From Aquificaceae bacterium (GTDB lineage Bacteria > Aquificota > Aquificia > Aquificales > Aquificaceae), in contig JALWVU010000055.1 of NCBI GenBank assembly GCA_027079305.1, forward strand, positions 372,001-436,000: 64,000 nt of DNA, written 5' to 3'. Both the position numbers and the translations under genes were made by a program. Below the pieces are notes generated by a model. That model was not told the DNA's origin, ran no database searches, and saw only the letters and a program-made list of their open reading frames with translations. Each line of letters begins with the position of its first letter. Within the stretch, counting starts at the first letter, position 1. Below, one piece after another: positions 51,178-58,079 of this stretch.

Positions 51178-51698
51178 CTGGCGTCCTCTTCTTCCTTAGA
51201 GAGCTTGGATATTATAACCTTCATCATCTGAAGCATGGACTGGGGATCGGTGGCGGTGATGAGGTTCTTGTCCGCCTCCACGGGCTCTCCCGTGTATACA
51301 GCCCCGGCGTTCTCCAGATCGTCCTTTATGGCGGAAAAGCCCGTAACCCTTCTCCCCTCGACTATCTTGGCTGAGATCAGGACCCAAGGACCGTGGCAGA
51401 CCGCGCAGACCAGCTTGCCCTCCTCATAGTGCCTCTTCACAAGGGAGAGGATCTCTGTATACCTTCTGAGCCTATCGGGAGCGTATCCACCCGGTATGAA
51501 AACGCAGTCGAAGGTGTCGTGGACCACCTCCTTCATAGGGACATCCGGCCTGAAGGTCATACCCTTTTTACCCCTGTATTCCGCCAGCTTGGGAGCCGCG
51601 GAGATAACTTCGAAGCCCTCCTCCTTGAATCTCAGGTATGGATATATAAACTCCACATCCTCTACGAGATCTTCCAAGAGTATCAGAACCCTCCTCAT
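51174..51698 (-). CDS. DJ-1/PfpI-family protein
   Basis: 174-residue DJ-1/PfpI-superfamily protein with the nucleophile cysteine in VCAVCHGPWVL (elbow CHG) and an upstream Glu in the usual place. Members act as glyoxalase/deglycase-like or stress-response enzymes, some as oligomeric proteases. The ATG at 51698 fits the family N-terminus (RRVLILLEDL); the longer frame to 51830 overlaps the divergent gene. It is the first gene of a probable operon with znuABC. The link to metal uptake is unexplained. Confidence 0.88.
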   Translation of the reverse strand: MRRVLILLEDLVEDVEFIYPYLRFKEEGFEVISAAPKLAEYRGKKGMTFRPDVPMKEVVHDTFDCVFIPGGYAPDRLRRYTEILSLVKRHYEEGKLVCAVCHGPWVLISAKIVEGRRVTGFSAIKDDLENAGAVYTGEPVEADKNLITATDPQSMLQMMKVIISKLSKEEEDAR

Positions 51699-51716
51699 GG
51701 TGTTAAATTTTACTTC

Positions 51717-52844
51717 ATGCGGGACGCCTTCATTCTCCTTTTCCTGATAGTCTCTTACAACTTCCTCCTCTGGTATATAACCTGGACTGGTCTTTCTCCC
51801 GTCCCACTTTTCCCGAAAGATCCTTATCATACTGTTCTTGTTCTATCTTACAACTCCGCCTTATATATCAGTTGGCTTTTCGGGGAAAGACATAAGGCGG
51901 TTCAGTGGATAGGTTATCTATTTGTCATTCAAATAATAGCCTTGAGCGTATACTCCGAGGATATAAGAGTAATATTAAAGGACCTTTCCCCCGTAATACT
52001 TACCTTTGCCCTTGTAGTCCTATTTGAATCCCCGACCGAGAAAAGGATTAAGAGCGTCGAGAAGGAAAGGGAGGCATTACTTAGGGAGATAGACAGGGTC
52101 AGAAAGGAGAGGGAGAAGGTAGAGGTTCACCTTAGAATGCTCAAAAGTGAGATAGAGGAGCTGGAGAAGGAGAAGGAAAAGGGCTCCAAGGAGCTGGAGG
52201 AGAGGCTTGCCCAGCTTCAGAGGGAACTTGAAGAGTATAAGGAGAAGGAGAGCAGGCTTCTCGAAACCAACAGGAAGCTCTTCCAGCTCCTTGAGATGAT
52301 GAGGGAGGATACAGAACCCGTGGGTGGGAAAGAGGAGCTCGCAAGTCTCAGAAGGGAGAGGAAGAGACTCGTTAAGGAGATAATAGGACTTCAGGAGCTT
52401 CTGGACGTATACGTGGACGAAAATGAGAAGCTGAAGGAAGATAACGCCAGGCTCAGAAGGAAGGTAGAGGAGCTGAACATAAAGCTCGGGAAGATGGAGA
52501 TTGAAAGAAAAACCTCCGATTCCCAAAAGGAAATTTACAGAGATATCTTAGAGGACCTGTTTCAGCTTAAGTTCTCCGAAAGGGTGGTGGAGGAGCTTCT
52601 CAGACTCCCTTCTCAGAAGAGGAAAGTCTTTCTTAAAGAACTTCTCAGATTCTCCCAGAGGGAGGGGCAGGAGAACGTGGAACCTCTATCTACCGTTCCC
52701 GGTATATACAAGCTCCGCTTCTCGGGCGGAAGGATCTACCTGAGAAAGAAGGACGGCTCCTGGGAGGTGGTGGGAGTTCTGGGATCGGAGGACGACAAGG
52801 AGAAGGATAGGTATATAAGAAACGTTTTGAGTAAAATAGATTAA
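51717..52844 (+). CDS. Membrane-anchored coiled-coil protein with RelE-like C-terminal domain
   Basis: 375 residues from the ATG at 51717. Residues 1-115 hold three or four hydrophobic helices. Residues about 120-300 are a long Glu/Lys/Arg coiled coil with leucine heptads. The last 70 residues (STVPGIYKLRF, then GGRIYLRKKDGSWEVVGVL) have the strand pattern of the RelE/ParE toxin fold. The catalytic residues of RelE cannot be mapped with confidence, so this may be a structural or ribosome-contacting domain rather than a toxin. The gene is divergent from the PfpI gene by 18 bases without a ribosome binding site and 32 bases upstream of the baeRF gene. Not a family I recognise as a whole. Confidence 0.72.
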   Translation: MRDAFILLFLIVSYNFLLWYITWTGLSPVPLFPKDPYHTVLVLSYNSALYISWLFGERHKAVQWIGYLFVIQIIALSVYSEDIRVILKDLSPVILTFALVVLFESPTEKRIKSVEKEREALLREIDRVRKEREKVEVHLRMLKSEIEELEKEKEKGSKELEERLAQLQRELEEYKEKESRLLETNRKLFQLLEMMREDTEPVGGKEELASLRRERKRLVKEIIGLQELLDVYVDENEKLKEDNARLRRKVEELNIKLGKMEIERKTSDSQKEIYRDILEDLFQLKFSERVVEELLRLPSQKRKVFLKELLRFSQREGQENVEPLSTVPGIYKLRFSGGRIYLRKKDGSWEVVGVLGSEDDKEKDRYIRNVLSKID

Positions 52845-52876
52845 AGATTTCCATAACACCCACAGGAGGAAAATAA

Positions 52877-54100
52877 ATGGCAAACCTGAGAGAAACGCTG
52901 GAAAATCTCGCCTCCTTCAGGCCCGAGGGAGCGCTGGTAACATCCCTGTATCTGCACCTCAGACCCGAGGAAAGGCAGGACAGGAAGTATCTGAGGATCT
53001 ACAAGGACATGGTGAAGGAGAAAAAGCTCGAGCTCGGGAGGAGGGAGCTTCCGAAAGATGTTCTGGACTCGATCGAGAAGGATTTTGAGACCATAGGAGA
53101 GTTCCTCTCAGATCCTAAAAACCTGGAAGGGTGCAGGGGCATAGCGGTCTTCTCCTGCTCGAAAGAGAAGTTCTTCCAGGTCGTGAAGCTCCCCTACGTC
53201 TACAGGAGCAGACTGATGGTTGCCCCCGATCCACTCATAAGGGAGATAGCGGCCATAGACGAGGAGTTCGGAAGGGTAGGTGTCCTCCTCGTGGATAGGA
53301 AGCACGTAAGGTTCTTCCTCATGGACATAGAGAGCGTGACCGAGAGCGTGGACTTCCTCGAACCTCTCGCCACGCGGGCCCACAGGTTCCACAGCGGTGG
53401 AAGCGGACTCAAAGGTGCGGAGGGAACCTTCCAGCTGAAGATGCCTTCCCGTGGAGCGGCCCCCAACATGGTCCAGCACTCCTACGGAGAGTGGCGCTTC
53501 CACATGAGGATACAGGAGGAGTGGCACAGGATCCTAAAGCTGGCCGCGGACGCCGCCTTCGAGGACTGGAAGAGGAGCAAGTTCGACAGACTCGTTGTGG
53601 GAGGCTTCGTAGAGGAGGGCCTGAGGGATATAGAGAACCACCTCCACGCCTATTTAAAGGAGAGGCTGGTGGGATACATAGAGATCAACCCTTCCGAGGC
53701 CAGGCCCCACGAGGTTGCGGAGAAGGTTCTGAATCTCCTCTGGGAGAAGGACAGGGAGCAGGAAAAAGAGCTTATATCCGAGCTTCAGGAGCTTATCGGA
53801 AAGGGCCTTGCGGTGAACGGAACCTCTAAGGTCCTCGAGATGCTCTCCATAGGCAACGTGAGGACGATCCTTATACCCGAGGACTTCGAGAAGCCAGGAT
53901 ATCTCTGTCCTGAGACTCACCTCGTATTCCTCAAGCCCGAGTGCCCCATCGAGGGAGAGGAGCCCATCCAGATAGAGGACATAGTGGACGAGGTGATAGA
54001 GGAGGCCCTGGAGCAGAGGGCGAGCGTTGAGGTGATAGTGGACAAGGAGCTTCAGAAGAAGGTGGACGGACTCGCCGCTTTCCTTAGATTTAGCCTATGA
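52877..54100 (+). CDS. baeRF-family (bacterial eRF1-like) protein
   Basis: 407-residue protein resembling archaeo-eukaryotic release factor 1 in its three-part layout: an N-terminal alpha/beta region, a central domain with VGVLLVDRKHVRFFLMD leading into a helical block (AADAAFEDWKRSKFDRLVVGGF), and a C-terminal L7Ae-like domain ending SVEVIVDKELQKKVDGLAAFLRF. The GGQ tripeptide is not present; the equivalent loop reads HSGGSGLKG...QHSYGEW. baeRF proteins are proposed to act in ribosome rescue or translation-linked conflict. AGGAGG precedes the ATG. It overlaps the NYN RNase gene by ATGA, a suggestive pairing. Confidence 0.82.
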   Translation: MANLRETLENLASFRPEGALVTSLYLHLRPEERQDRKYLRIYKDMVKEKKLELGRRELPKDVLDSIEKDFETIGEFLSDPKNLEGCRGIAVFSCSKEKFFQVVKLPYVYRSRLMVAPDPLIREIAAIDEEFGRVGVLLVDRKHVRFFLMDIESVTESVDFLEPLATRAHRFHSGGSGLKGAEGTFQLKMPSRGAAPNMVQHSYGEWRFHMRIQEEWHRILKLAADAAFEDWKRSKFDRLVVGGFVEEGLRDIENHLHAYLKERLVGYIEINPSEARPHEVAEKVLNLLWEKDREQEKELISELQELIGKGLAVNGTSKVLEMLSIGNVRTILIPEDFEKPGYLCPETHLVFLKPECPIEGEEPIQIEDIVDEVIEEALEQRASVEVIVDKELQKKVDGLAAFLRFSL

Positions 54101-54693
54101 ACGAAGAGAGGCTGATGATCTTCATCGACGGCTCCAATCTGTTCCACGGGATAAGGTATCTCAACATAAAGATAGACTACACCAAGCTGGTGGAGTTCCT
54201 GAGAGAGAGCAGGAGGCTGGTGAGGGCCTACTTCTACACCGCGGTCCCTCAGGACAGGGACGTGAAGAAAGGAACACCAGAGTGGGAGAGCCTGGTGAGG
54301 CAGAAGAGGTTCTTGGAAGAGCTCGCCCTCTCGGGCATAAAGGTTAAGCTCGCCAAGCTCAGAAGGCTCCCCTCGGGGGAGTTCGTGGAGAAAGAGGTGG
54401 ACATAATGCTCGCCACCGACATGCTCTCTCTGGCCTTCCAGGACGCCTACGACACCGCAGTCCTCGTGAGCGGGGACAGCGACTTCATATACACGGTGGA
54501 GGAGGTCCAGAGGATAGGAAAGAGGGTCGAGAACGCCACCTTCAAGAAGACGAGCTCCTACAACCTCAGGAAAGTATGTGACAGGTTCATACTACTGGAC
54601 AACTTCATAGACCGCTTCACCTACGAGGATAAACCCGCCCTCTACGAGGAGGTGGGCTTCTGGGCCAAGATAAAGAGCCTCTGGAAGAGATGA
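54097..54693 (+). CDS. NYN-domain (LabA/DUF88) RNase-like protein
   Basis: 198-residue PIN-like nuclease domain protein. Acidic residues expected at the metal site are visible: FIDGSNLFHG (D10), KEVDIMLATDM (D103, D109) and VSGDSDF (D125, D127). These proteins are predicted to cut RNA. It overlaps the baeRF gene by ATGA and the pyrophosphatase gene by 4 bases, so all three are probably co-expressed. Its target RNA is unknown; a stalled ribosome mRNA or tRNA is an inference from the baeRF partner. Confidence 0.88.
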   Translation: MNEERLMIFIDGSNLFHGIRYLNIKIDYTKLVEFLRESRRLVRAYFYTAVPQDRDVKKGTPEWESLVRQKRFLEELALSGIKVKLAKLRRLPSGEFVEKEVDIMLATDMLSLAFQDAYDTAVLVSGDSDFIYTVEEVQRIGKRVENATFKKTSSYNLRKVCDRFILLDNFIDRFTYEDKPALYEEVGFWAKIKSLWKR

Positions 54694-55292
54694 AGATACT
54701 GGTGGCCACAACTAACCGGGGGAAGCTCGAGGAGATAAGGAGGATCCTGAACCCCCTCGGATACGAGGTGATGGAACCTCCCGAAAAGCTGGAGGTAGAG
54801 GAGAGGGGAACGACCTTCTTGGAGAACGCCTATCTGAAGGCCAGAGCTTACTACGAGAGGTTCAAGGTTCCCTCCCTTGCGGACGACTCGGGCCTGGTGG
54901 TGGATGCATTCGGAGGCTATCCCGGGGTGTTCTCGAGCAGGTTCCACTCTATTGAGTTCGGAGGAAGGGAGGACCTCAGAGACTCTGTGGACGAGGCCAA
55001 CGTCAGAAAGCTCCTAAGACTCTTGAAGGGGAAAGAAAACAGGAGGGCCAGCTTCGTAGCCTGCGTGGTCCTTTACTTGGGAGACGGAGGCCTCTTTGCG
55101 GAGGGAGAGTGCAGGGGAAGCGTAGCGGAGTTCCCGAGGGGATCCGGAGGCTTCGGATACGATCCGGTCTTCGTTCCCGAGGGCTACGATAGAACCATGG
55201 CCCAGCTTAGCCCCGAGGAGAAGGACAGGATATCTCACAGGGGCAGGGCCCTCAGGAAGCTGGCGGATCTTTTAAAGAGATGTGATCTGTAG
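54690..55292 (+). CDS. rdgB: Inosine/xanthosine triphosphate pyrophosphatase (RdgB/HAM1)
   Basis: 200-residue nucleotide house-cleaning enzyme that removes ITP, XTP and dITP. Motifs: TTNRGKLEEIRRIL at the N-terminus, TTFLENAYLKARAYY, LADDSGLVVDA, GGFGYDPVFVPEG and SHRGRALRKL. It overlaps NYN by 4 bases and the downstream gamma-like gene by one base (TAGTG). Confidence 0.95.
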   Translation: MKILVATTNRGKLEEIRRILNPLGYEVMEPPEKLEVEERGTTFLENAYLKARAYYERFKVPSLADDSGLVVDAFGGYPGVFSSRFHSIEFGGREDLRDSVDEANVRKLLRLLKGKENRRASFVACVVLYLGDGGLFAEGECRGSVAEFPRGSGGFGYDPVFVPEGYDRTMAQLSPEEKDRISHRGRALRKLADLLKRCDL

Positions 55293-56473
55293 TGGAGATA
55301 GGGAAGAAAATAAGAACCTTCGAGGCCCTCAGGAGCACCCTGAACCTCTGGGAGGTCCTTGCGGTAAACAGATACAAAAAATACAGCTCCCTCGTGGGTG
55401 CCCAGCTCCCGTATTTTCTGAGGCTACAGGAGGTTCTCGAACACCTCTGCGCCCTCTACCCGGGAACCAGGAGCGACCTCCTGCGGGTCAGGGAGGAAAG
55501 GAGCGTGGACCTTCTCATACTCACCTCCGACAGAGGCTATCTGGGAGACTTCATCCCGAGAATCCTCAGGAAGGCGGAGGATTTCATTGAGGCCAGAAGG
55601 GAAATCAAGATAAGTCTCTTCCTGGCGGGAAGGAGGGGAGCTTTGAGGAAATACATGGAAGGGGGAGCTGTCCTCTTCGAGGAGGTCCTCACAAAGGACG
55701 TGAGCTGGGAAGTGGTGGAGAAGATCAGGAACACCTTGGTGGAACGCTACAGGAAAGGGATGAGCGACGCCTGCTACGTTATCTTCCAGAGGCCGAGAGT
55801 GGAGGGAGGCAGGTTCTTAGAGCTGGAGAGGAGGGAGAGAAGGGAAGCGGTTTTGGAAGGGAGCCCTTTCTTCTACACCGGCTTCAGCGAGGTTCTCAAG
55901 CTGGAGCCAAAACGTATGGTGGAGACGGGAGGATACGGGCCCGTGGTGGTGAGGTTCCTGCCTCCTGAAATAAAGGGAAGGTATACCAAAAAATTTGTCC
56001 TTAATTTGGAGGTCCCTGAGGAGGAGCTGATAGAAAGTCTTCTGGAACTCTATCTCAACTTCTTCATGAGGGAAATCTTCTTAGAGCACTTTGCCTCCCT
56101 GAACTTTGCCAGATACAGAACCGTATCCCGAATTCTCGAAAACATAGACAGGAAGCTGAGAACATACAGGCTACTTGTGAACAAGCTCAGGCAGGAGAAG
56201 ATAACGAAGGAGATACAGGATATAGTGTTCTCTCTGATAGCTACCGAGGGAAAAGAGTTCAGATCCTATCAAGAAAATCTTTGGACTCTGGAGGTGGACC
56301 TTCACATAGATGAGGATGTTGTTAAGTATCTGATAGACAGACTCAAAAACCTCGGTTTTACCGTGGGAGGGGTGGAGAGGAGGAACCTCTTAGGCGGTTT
56401 CAAACTGCTGAAACCCGGAAGGGCTATCGATCTCTCCATAGCAGGACTTCTGAACAGCCTGAAGCGGTTATAA
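55292..56473 (+). CDS. ATP synthase gamma-like protein fused to a delta-like C-terminal domain
   Basis: 393 residues against about 290 for ordinary F1 gamma. Residues 1-316 align by eye with gamma: N-terminal helix with IGKKIRTFEALRS, the LTSDRGYLGDF strand (78-87), an alpha/beta middle, and the C-terminal helix with LVNKLRQEKITKEIQDIV (295-312), matching the usual NKARQAxITxEIxEIV. Residues about 330-393 match the C-terminal domain of subunit delta (OSCP), including RRNLLGGFKL and AIDLSIAGLLNSLKRL. Start is GTG, overlapping rdgB by one base. No other ATP synthase genes are in the window. It could be the real gamma/stalk subunit, a specialised paralogue, or a protein with a new role. Confidence 0.75.
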   Translation: MEIGKKIRTFEALRSTLNLWEVLAVNRYKKYSSLVGAQLPYFLRLQEVLEHLCALYPGTRSDLLRVREERSVDLLILTSDRGYLGDFIPRILRKAEDFIEARREIKISLFLAGRRGALRKYMEGGAVLFEEVLTKDVSWEVVEKIRNTLVERYRKGMSDACYVIFQRPRVEGGRFLELERRERREAVLEGSPFFYTGFSEVLKLEPKRMVETGGYGPVVVRFLPPEIKGRYTKKFVLNLEVPEEELIESLLELYLNFFMREIFLEHFASLNFARYRTVSRILENIDRKLRTYRLLVNKLRQEKITKEIQDIVFSLIATEGKEFRSYQENLWTLEVDLHIDEDVVKYLIDRLKNLGFTVGGVERRNLLGGFKLLKPGRAIDLSIAGLLNSLKRL

Positions 56474-57075: not shown

Positions 57076-57546
57076 ATGTTCAGAGAGCTGGCTGTGCCAG
57101 AGGAAGTAGGGGACAGAGAGGTAAGGGATATTTTCAAACTTCTCCTCGAAATGAGTTCCGAGGTCTACGGTGAGCTTGGCGCGGGATTTCCCGAAGACAT
57201 CTACCAGAAGGCCCTTCAGGTAGAAATGAGACAGAGAGGTATAAGGTTCCAGAGGGAGGTGAACATAGAGATCTTTTACAAGCAGATACCTATAGGTTTC
57301 GACAGGCCTGACTTTATAATAAGGCCCTTCTCCAACGGTAGCATGCACCTATCTAAACCCGTGGTGGTTGAACTTAAGGCGGTAAAGAAGATAGAGGAAA
57401 AGCACAAGGTCCAGGCAAGAACATACCTGATTTCCCTTCCTCATTCCTCCGATGGAGAACTGAACGAGTGCAGGCACTGTTTTCTTGTGAACTTTCCCTC
57501 AAATGGGGCTGATAGCATTGATATTCTACTAATAGAAAAATCATGA
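57076..57546 (+). CDS. GxxExxY protein (PDDEXK nuclease-like fold)
   Basis: 156-residue member of the GxxExxY family (PF13366), with the name motif at G37-E40-Y43 and nuclease-fold residues in RPDFII and VVVELKAV (ExK). Family members are common in bacteria, but function is not established. GGAGG precedes the ATG at 57076. It overlaps dcd by ATGA, so it is part of a short operon with nucleotide metabolism. Confidence 0.85.
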   Translation: MFRELAVPEEVGDREVRDIFKLLLEMSSEVYGELGAGFPEDIYQKALQVEMRQRGIRFQREVNIEIFYKQIPIGFDRPDFIIRPFSNGSMHLSKPVVVELKAVKKIEEKHKVQARTYLISLPHSSDGELNECRHCFLVNFPSNGADSIDILLIEKS

Positions 57547-58079
57547 TACTGAGCGACAGGACGATCAAGGAGCTTATAGACAAGGGCGACCTTGTGGTAG
57601 ATCCGTTCGATGAGTCCCAGGTTCAGTGTTCTTCCCTTGACCTCAGGTTAGGAGACGAGTTCGTCAGATTCAAAGGATCCGGGACAATAGATGTAAGGGA
57701 AGGTGTTAAGGACATAGAAAAAGAGGTGGTGAGCGAGTGTATAGAGATAGGCCCGAAAGAGTTCCTGCTCGCAACTACAGTCGAATACATAAAGCTTCCA
57801 CCCCACATAACCGCCTTCGTGGAGGGTAGATCTTCTCTCGGTAGACTCGGTCTCTTCATAGAGAACGCGGGGTGGGTGGATGCAGGCTTCGAGGGACAGA
57901 TAACCTTGGAGCTATATAACGCCAACAGCGTTCCTATCAGACTTTACGTAGGTATGAGGGTATGCCAGCTCGTCTTTGCAAAGCTTGACAGAACTCCGGA
58001 GAAGGTATACAGCGGTAAATACAGAGGTCAGAGAGGAGTCACCCCATCAAAGATAGAGATGGACAGGGAGCTGAAATGA
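57543..58079 (+). CDS. dcd: dCTP deaminase
   Basis: 178-residue trimeric enzyme that converts dCTP to dUTP (or dUMP in bifunctional forms) for dTTP synthesis. Motifs: ILSDRTIKELI, CSSLDLRLGDEF, EGRSSLGRLGLF (catalytic Ser/Arg) and NAGWVDAGFEGQITLEL (catalytic Glu). Overlaps by ATGA on both sides. Confidence 0.95.
   Translation: MILSDRTIKELIDKGDLVVDPFDESQVQCSSLDLRLGDEFVRFKGSGTIDVREGVKDIEKEVVSECIEIGPKEFLLATTVEYIKLPPHITAFVEGRSSLGRLGLFIENAGWVDAGFEGQITLELYNANSVPIRLYVGMRVCQLVFAKLDRTPEKVYSGKYRGQRGVTPSKIEMDRELK

Follow-up and report, generated by a model that had tools for sequence, protein, structure and literature searches.

To our knowledge, the parts of the rotor and of the stator are separate in every F-type ATP synthase known. 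In the window, as we call the whole stretch of 64,000 nucleotides of Aquificaceae DNA that was analysed, a single gene joins the two: its product begins like gamma, a part of the rotor, and ends like delta (OSCP), a part of the stator. Such a gene raises a chain of questions: whether both parts are what they appear to be, whether the gene stands in for a normal subunit or beside it, whether it is a true gene at all, and what a protein of this kind might do in the cell.

A gamma backbone and a delta domain in one chain

The gene is read from a GTG that shares one nucleotide with the stop codon of the upstream gene, rdgB, at a TAGTG junction. The features of the gene and its product, in window coordinates, are:

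55292..56473, + strand: coding sequence of the gamma-delta(CTD) fusion, 393 amino acids, one intact in-frame ORF from GTG start to stop
55298..55456, + strand: gamma N-terminal helix, residues 3-55, with the ITxAM motif lost (AF2 model)
55502..55798, + strand: gamma foot, a Rossmann-like domain, residues 71-169, resuming at 214-223 (AF2 model, PF00231)
55799..55930, + strand: family-specific insert, residues 170-213, predicted to be disordered (AF2 model, alignment)
56018..56278, + strand: single, long C-terminal gamma helix, residues 243-329 (AF2 model)
56189..56212, + strand: tether/sleeve motif RQEKITKE, residues 300-307, its invariant positions kept in 19 of 19 fusions
56282..56467, + strand: delta/OSCP C-terminal domain, residues 331-392, built as strand-helix-three strands-helix

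The gamma-like backbone that the initial annotation had read from the sequence is borne out by profile and by structure. The Pfam family ATP-synt (PF00231) matches the protein with an E-value of 8.2e-33, solved gamma chains align by sequence to residues 2-168 and 231-314, and a Foldseek search with the AF2 model of the whole protein (pLDDT 81.9) returned gamma chains as the best PDB matches (E 1e-17, TM up to 0.83 on the target). The NCBIfam gamma models also match the fusion, all of them far below their curated cut-offs (best 124.9 versus 445 bits). The model lays out the two-helix shaft and the foot of gamma, a disordered stretch at about 172-211, the unbroken helix over 243-329 and a terminal alpha/beta domain over 331-392. 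The initial domain map, which was right about the fusion, had overlooked the insert of about 40 residues in the foot; this insert has no counterpart in canonical gammas and is modelled at a pLDDT of about 40 at residues 172-211. Within it, the tyrosine of FFY (Y195; residues 193-195, window positions 55868-55876) is invariant in alignment A1 and preceded by an aromatic or aliphatic residue, as in a putative short binding motif.

The profile check that had been proposed for the C-terminal residues failed on the window protein by itself, which gives no Pfam OSCP match even at E<=10, and succeeded through homologues, profile-profile comparison and structure. A genome search with PF00213, made from DNA and without reference to the fusion, matched the C-termini of fusions, best in genome G023 (E 6.5e-6, over the curated cut-off), then in G004 (1.6e-4), G002 (3.5e-4) and G016 (5.0e-4), and more weakly in G001, G005, G010 and G015; an OSCP match at E<=0.1 was found in five of the 23 rows of alignment A2, 19 of which are fusions. 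A profile of 21 C-terminal-domain sequences, compared with a profile of 26 canonical Aquificales deltas, aligned over 61 columns with a probability of 94.9 and a P of 4.5e-8, and landed exactly on the C-terminal domain of delta; the best P of 60 column-shuffled controls was 0.024, the reversed profile gave 0.006 and eleven unrelated families gave at least 0.076. Modelled alone, the 72-residue domain reached a pLDDT of 84.7, and in Foldseek the first seven places among its PDB matches go to chains of delta, OSCP or b-delta, with the delta-like FliH (5b0o) next; the E-values, about 0.007-0.04 at a probability of 0.98-1.0, are modest, as is usual for a domain of 72 residues. The delta domain had been placed at residues 325-393, and its presence stands while its boundaries move to about 331-392. 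The N-terminal helical domain of delta is absent from the fusion, where gamma fills residues 1-329. With one in-frame ORF, the gamma match and these three lines of evidence for the delta part, it is close to certain that a gamma backbone and the C-terminal domain of delta share one chain, as had first been claimed.

A paralogue beside the canonical enzyme

The window's own genome (G000) also encodes a complete canonical F1Fo, with two genes for b and one each for alpha, beta, gamma, delta, epsilon, a and c, and the fusion is a paralogue. The separate atpG and atpH genes that the initial annotation had asked for are both present, canonical gamma with beta on contig C45 and canonical delta with the two b genes and epsilon on C73, so the fusion was rejected as a replacement for either subunit. 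Alpha lies on C75, and a and c on C70. As even these canonical genes are spread across four contigs, the location of the fusion outside any ATP synthase operon, once offered as an argument, carries little weight. Four proteins of the genome belong to PF00006, namely alpha, beta, FliI and Rho (the last by elimination and length), and a second alpha/beta pair was not found with this profile. We therefore rejected a second F1 complex equipped with a separate ring, and the suggestion of an unusual ATPase, taken as one with its own catalytic ring, is disfavoured. FliI above the cut-off is absent from four fusion-bearing genomes of the Hydrogenobacter group, each 99% complete (G021, G036, G065 and G066), and for this reason the export ATPase was rejected as the general partner of the fusion. 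Nor is there support for a fusion that makes up for an epsilon lacking the inhibitory C-terminal domain, since epsilon is of like size with and without the fusion (ORFs of about 130-150 aa, except for a few fragments and some longer frames, including that of the window's genome).

Twenty-one Aquificaceae genomes carry the fusion: ten of g1, the window's own genus, six of g4 (the Aquifex group), four of g6 (the Hydrogenobacter group) and one of g8. It is intact in 18 of these, and two of the carriers are single-contig genomes (G006 and G066). Pairwise dN/dS values of 0.10-0.15 (five pairs) indicate purifying selection. An assembly join, a frameshift or a decaying pseudogene, which had been named as the outcome that could undo the claim, is consequently almost inconceivable: two draft genomes do hold a broken copy, one interrupted by Ns (G016) and one by a frameshift (G035), and against them stand the 18 intact copies, a further copy cut only by a contig end (G001), the closed genomes, the low dN/dS and a single clade that branches by genus. 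In G015 (L071:5810-8356, minus strand), the fusion reads without a stop into a bioA-like aminotransferase, giving an ORF of 848-854 residues, which is either a genuine further fusion or the result of a stop codon lost in a draft genome.

When about 85,000 species were scanned for the tip motif KxRQE[KR]I[NT]xE, a search that fusions elsewhere could escape, no fusion from another lineage turned up among the best 80 of 229 relatives. Eleven of these 80 loci have a long tail of 79-97 residues (in one case continuing into a further gene), and all eleven come from MAGs named Aquificaceae, Aquificota, Aquifex or Hydrogenobacter; in the remaining 69, the motif is followed by 5-19 residues. The conservation across Aquificales, which had been proposed as a check, holds within limits, those of the family Aquificaceae with its 21 genomes. 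In a phylogenetic tree, the fusions form one clade (support 100/100) that is nested among the order's gammas (95/99) and has a stem 2.14 changes per site long. Within the clade, g6 branches first, then g8, then g4 and g1, whose join is only moderately supported; constraining the fusions together with the Aquificaceae gammas gave an AU p of 0.33. The fusion is missing, for example, from G029 (g6), G030 (g8) and G013 (g1), the last of which still has the upstream genes. All this is most simply read as a single event of duplication and fusion, no later than the ancestor of g1, g4, g6 and g8, with losses afterwards.

The genes that precede the fusion in the window form a closely spaced run:

51393..52844, + strand: coiled-coil protein with a hydrophobic N-terminus, without a Pfam family
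52877..54100, + strand: baeRF/eRF1-like protein (baeRF_family12 E 7.9e-21, eRF1_3 E 1.1e-7)
54097..54693, + strand: NYN-domain protein (PF01936 E 8.1e-32)
54690..55292, + strand: rdgB, Ham1-like pyrophosphatase, next upstream with a 1-nt overlap (PF01725 E 8.8e-60)

Homologues of the 51393..52844 ORF begin further downstream than its first start codon. In g1 and g4, the genes ahead of the fusion are those for a coiled-coil membrane-type protein, a baeRF/eRF1-like protein and an NYN protein, and then rdgB. In g6 the fusion comes after tyrS, and in g8 its neighbour is an nnr-like gene. The run at 51393-54693 (coiled-coil/membrane, baeRF and NYN) is kept in most Aquificaceae genera, well beyond the fusion, and in family f2 the baeRF gene at least is conserved; a link between this run and ribosome rescue or hibernation deserves a look. 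The eRF1-like superfamily includes the ribosome hibernation factor Balon (PMC10901736), and a PDB sequence search with the baeRF-like neighbour gave a weak eRF1 match and did not find Balon. The relation of baeRF to Balon is a weak hint at a dormancy theme for the fusion. The hibernation-operon argument as such was set aside, given that many genomes have the baeRF-NYN run but no fusion, that the fusion lies elsewhere in g6 and g8, and that Balon was not matched. In g4 (L077:7823-8701 on the minus strand, L078 and L079), the next gene after the fusion is convergent with it, overlaps it slightly and encodes a KaiC-family ATPase; a supposed link to subunit a in Aquifex was dropped once the convergent neighbour proved to be this KaiC-like ATPase. 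Some 1 kb downstream of the fusion, the window carries a gene for dCTP deaminase (57543-58079), another lies near the tyrS-fusion pair in g6 (L075/L076/L276), and this shared proximity may be old synteny.

Ring-facing residues and a possible role

The retention of canonical residues was scored in an alignment of 19 fusions, 24 canonical Aquificaceae gammas and E. coli gamma, at sites invariant in the canonical gammas and shared with E. coli. The fusions retain the canonical residue in 80% of cases at the tip (11 sites) and in 31% over the rest of the coiled coil, with permutation p-values of 1.4e-4 for this comparison and 3.8e-4 for the tip against all other sites, values that are indicative only, the sites being non-independent. 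Along the N-terminal helix, 27% of the 21 canonical-invariant sites are retained, and T17, I20, T21 and Q36 (E. coli numbering with Met) are kept in none of the 19 fusions. Nor does any of them keep the canonical tyrosine Y206 of that numbering, which is Y205 in the literature numbering used from here on and is a contact with the c-ring loop. At the tip, the equivalents of R268, Q269, I272 and E275 (R300, Q301, I304 and E307 of the window protein) are invariant in all 19, and the position of T273 is occupied by T in 7, N in 11 and D in 1. In E. coli, R268 and Q269 tether gamma to the beta catch loop, and T273 and E275 are the sole polar groups within the hydrophobic sleeve (PMC9447477). We read this pattern of residues as that of a ring-facing tip which would still be under selection, and of a canonical foot which would not. 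Since there is one alpha/beta pair, and FliI is missing from four fusion-bearing genomes, the likely partner of the fusion is the ordinary alpha3-beta3 ring.

In F1, the C-terminus of gamma points up through the sleeve to the crown, where delta sits. In the AF2 model, the long helix of the fusion goes on for about 22 residues after E307, the glutamate of the sleeve, and is followed by the delta domain, so the chain can follow the axis of the enzyme to the stalk site, and the arrangement is sterically sensible. On the mechanism that we propose, the gamma-like C-terminal helix would thread into a normal alpha3-beta3 ring and be held there by the same tip residues as gamma; the helix would continue through the top of the ring, and the delta-like domain would rest on the crown, the site of delta and the peripheral stalk. 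An F1 so occupied would not couple to the membrane rotor, because its shaft would be tied to a stator-type domain and its foot lacks the canonical residues. The same tie and the altered foot argue for a non-rotating F1, whether capped, stored or locked, or else for an assembly intermediate, and the most likely use would be capping, storing or locking F1 while the cell makes no ATP.

Our preferred reading, to which we give a probability of roughly 0.4, is accordingly a tentative one: an accessory gamma paralogue of the Aquificaceae that would bind F1 as a gamma mimic and cap, store or lock it. It draws on the invariant tip, the single alpha/beta pair, the gaps in FliI, the helix that leads straight into the delta fold, the loss at the Y205 position, the foot insert and the low dN/dS. 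Against it, the tip may have been conserved through structural inheritance, 12 of the 19 fusions have N or D in place of T273, and the N-terminal domain of delta, by which delta holds alpha in the real enzyme, is the very part that the fusion lacks; the function is dispensable, since related genomes have lost the gene, and the genomic context is non-F1 and differs between genera. A role as a regulator, one of those suggested at the outset, is a plausible candidate. The specific form in which the gamma mimic would fill the shaft of F1 and engage the peripheral stalk through its delta domain, stapling rotor to stator and so locking the ring mechanically, we consider doubtful; if true, it would be a shut-off mode of the ATP synthase unlike those of epsilon, zeta and IF1.

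The results fit locking, chaperoning and an alternative rotor alike, and the locking role is put forward as a hypothesis. The tip residues and the helix model that speak for a lock speak as much for an assembly factor, a placeholder gamma which would nucleate alpha3-beta3 and later be replaced by gamma-epsilon and delta; its delta-like domain could recruit the b/b' stalk, and the need for it could be confined to some lineages. No result here sets this role apart from the lock model, however, and relatives with the same canonical enzyme manage without the fusion, and we hold it to be unlikely. Rather less probable is a soluble complex of alpha3-beta3 and the fusion that would hydrolyse ATP and drive a target other than the c-ring, with the delta domain and the insert as adaptors. 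The retained catch-loop tether, a torque-giving motif in E. coli (PMC9447477), the conserved tyrosine in the disordered insert and the precedent of mycoplasma F1-like ATPases without Fo (PMC12994834) favour such a rotor, yet the mycoplasma systems own their alpha and beta copies whereas here there is one pair, no partner gene adjoining the fusion is conserved across genera, and the N-terminal helix has mostly diverged. The protein might also have left F1 to bind another ring or a partner in translation or nucleotide metabolism, its tip residues merely inherited, as its fast evolution and its close, overlapping arrangement with baeRF, NYN and rdgB in two genera could suggest. This, too, seems improbable to us: the ring-facing residues are the best retained while the remainder diverged, the neighbourhood varies and the baeRF-NYN run occurs elsewhere without the fusion, and FliI cannot be a general partner.

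Comparison with known systems

No published description of a gamma-delta(CTD) fusion was found in the open-licence full-text literature, and as far as we have searched the fusion is real, conserved and undescribed. A rotor-stator fusion that is under selection, spans genera and keeps the residues that grip the ring would point either to a novel means of stopping or storing F1 or to an F1 at work other than as a proton-driven motor. It is also open to experiment, being present in the Aquifex and Hydrogenobacter lineages, which include cultured members.

With F1 gamma (PF00231), the fusion shares the fold, full-length homology and the catch-loop tether and sleeve residues; it differs in its added delta C-terminal domain and 40-residue foot insert, in the loss of most N-terminal-helix invariants and of the tyrosine at the Y205 position, and in being a second copy beside a normal gamma. 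With delta/OSCP (PF00213), it has in common the fold of the C-terminal domain and the GGF...D.S pattern, without the N-terminal helical domain. The flagellar export ATPase likewise has a gamma-like part, FliJ, and a delta-like domain in FliH (Foldseek 5b0o), but there the two are separate proteins, and FliI is absent from the four fusion-bearing genomes named above. The F1-like X0 ATPases of mycoplasmas (types 2 and 3) also place a paralogous gamma-like subunit beside a normal ATP synthase, in a cluster with its own alpha, beta and epsilon, whereas the gamma-delta fusion is a single gene (PMC12994834).

In the genomes searched, OSCP matches also fall in ORFs of about 250-277 aa (G002:C143, G012:C84, G040:C11, G046:C2, G052:C6 and G054:C2), several of them near a second, divergent gamma, and these are probably b-delta fusions of an alternate F1Fo in some Aquificales. 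Such fusions, like the stalk subunit of mycobacteria, are also natural cases of a delta domain put to use in a joined chain; they link stator to stator, whereas the gamma-delta fusion links rotor to stator.
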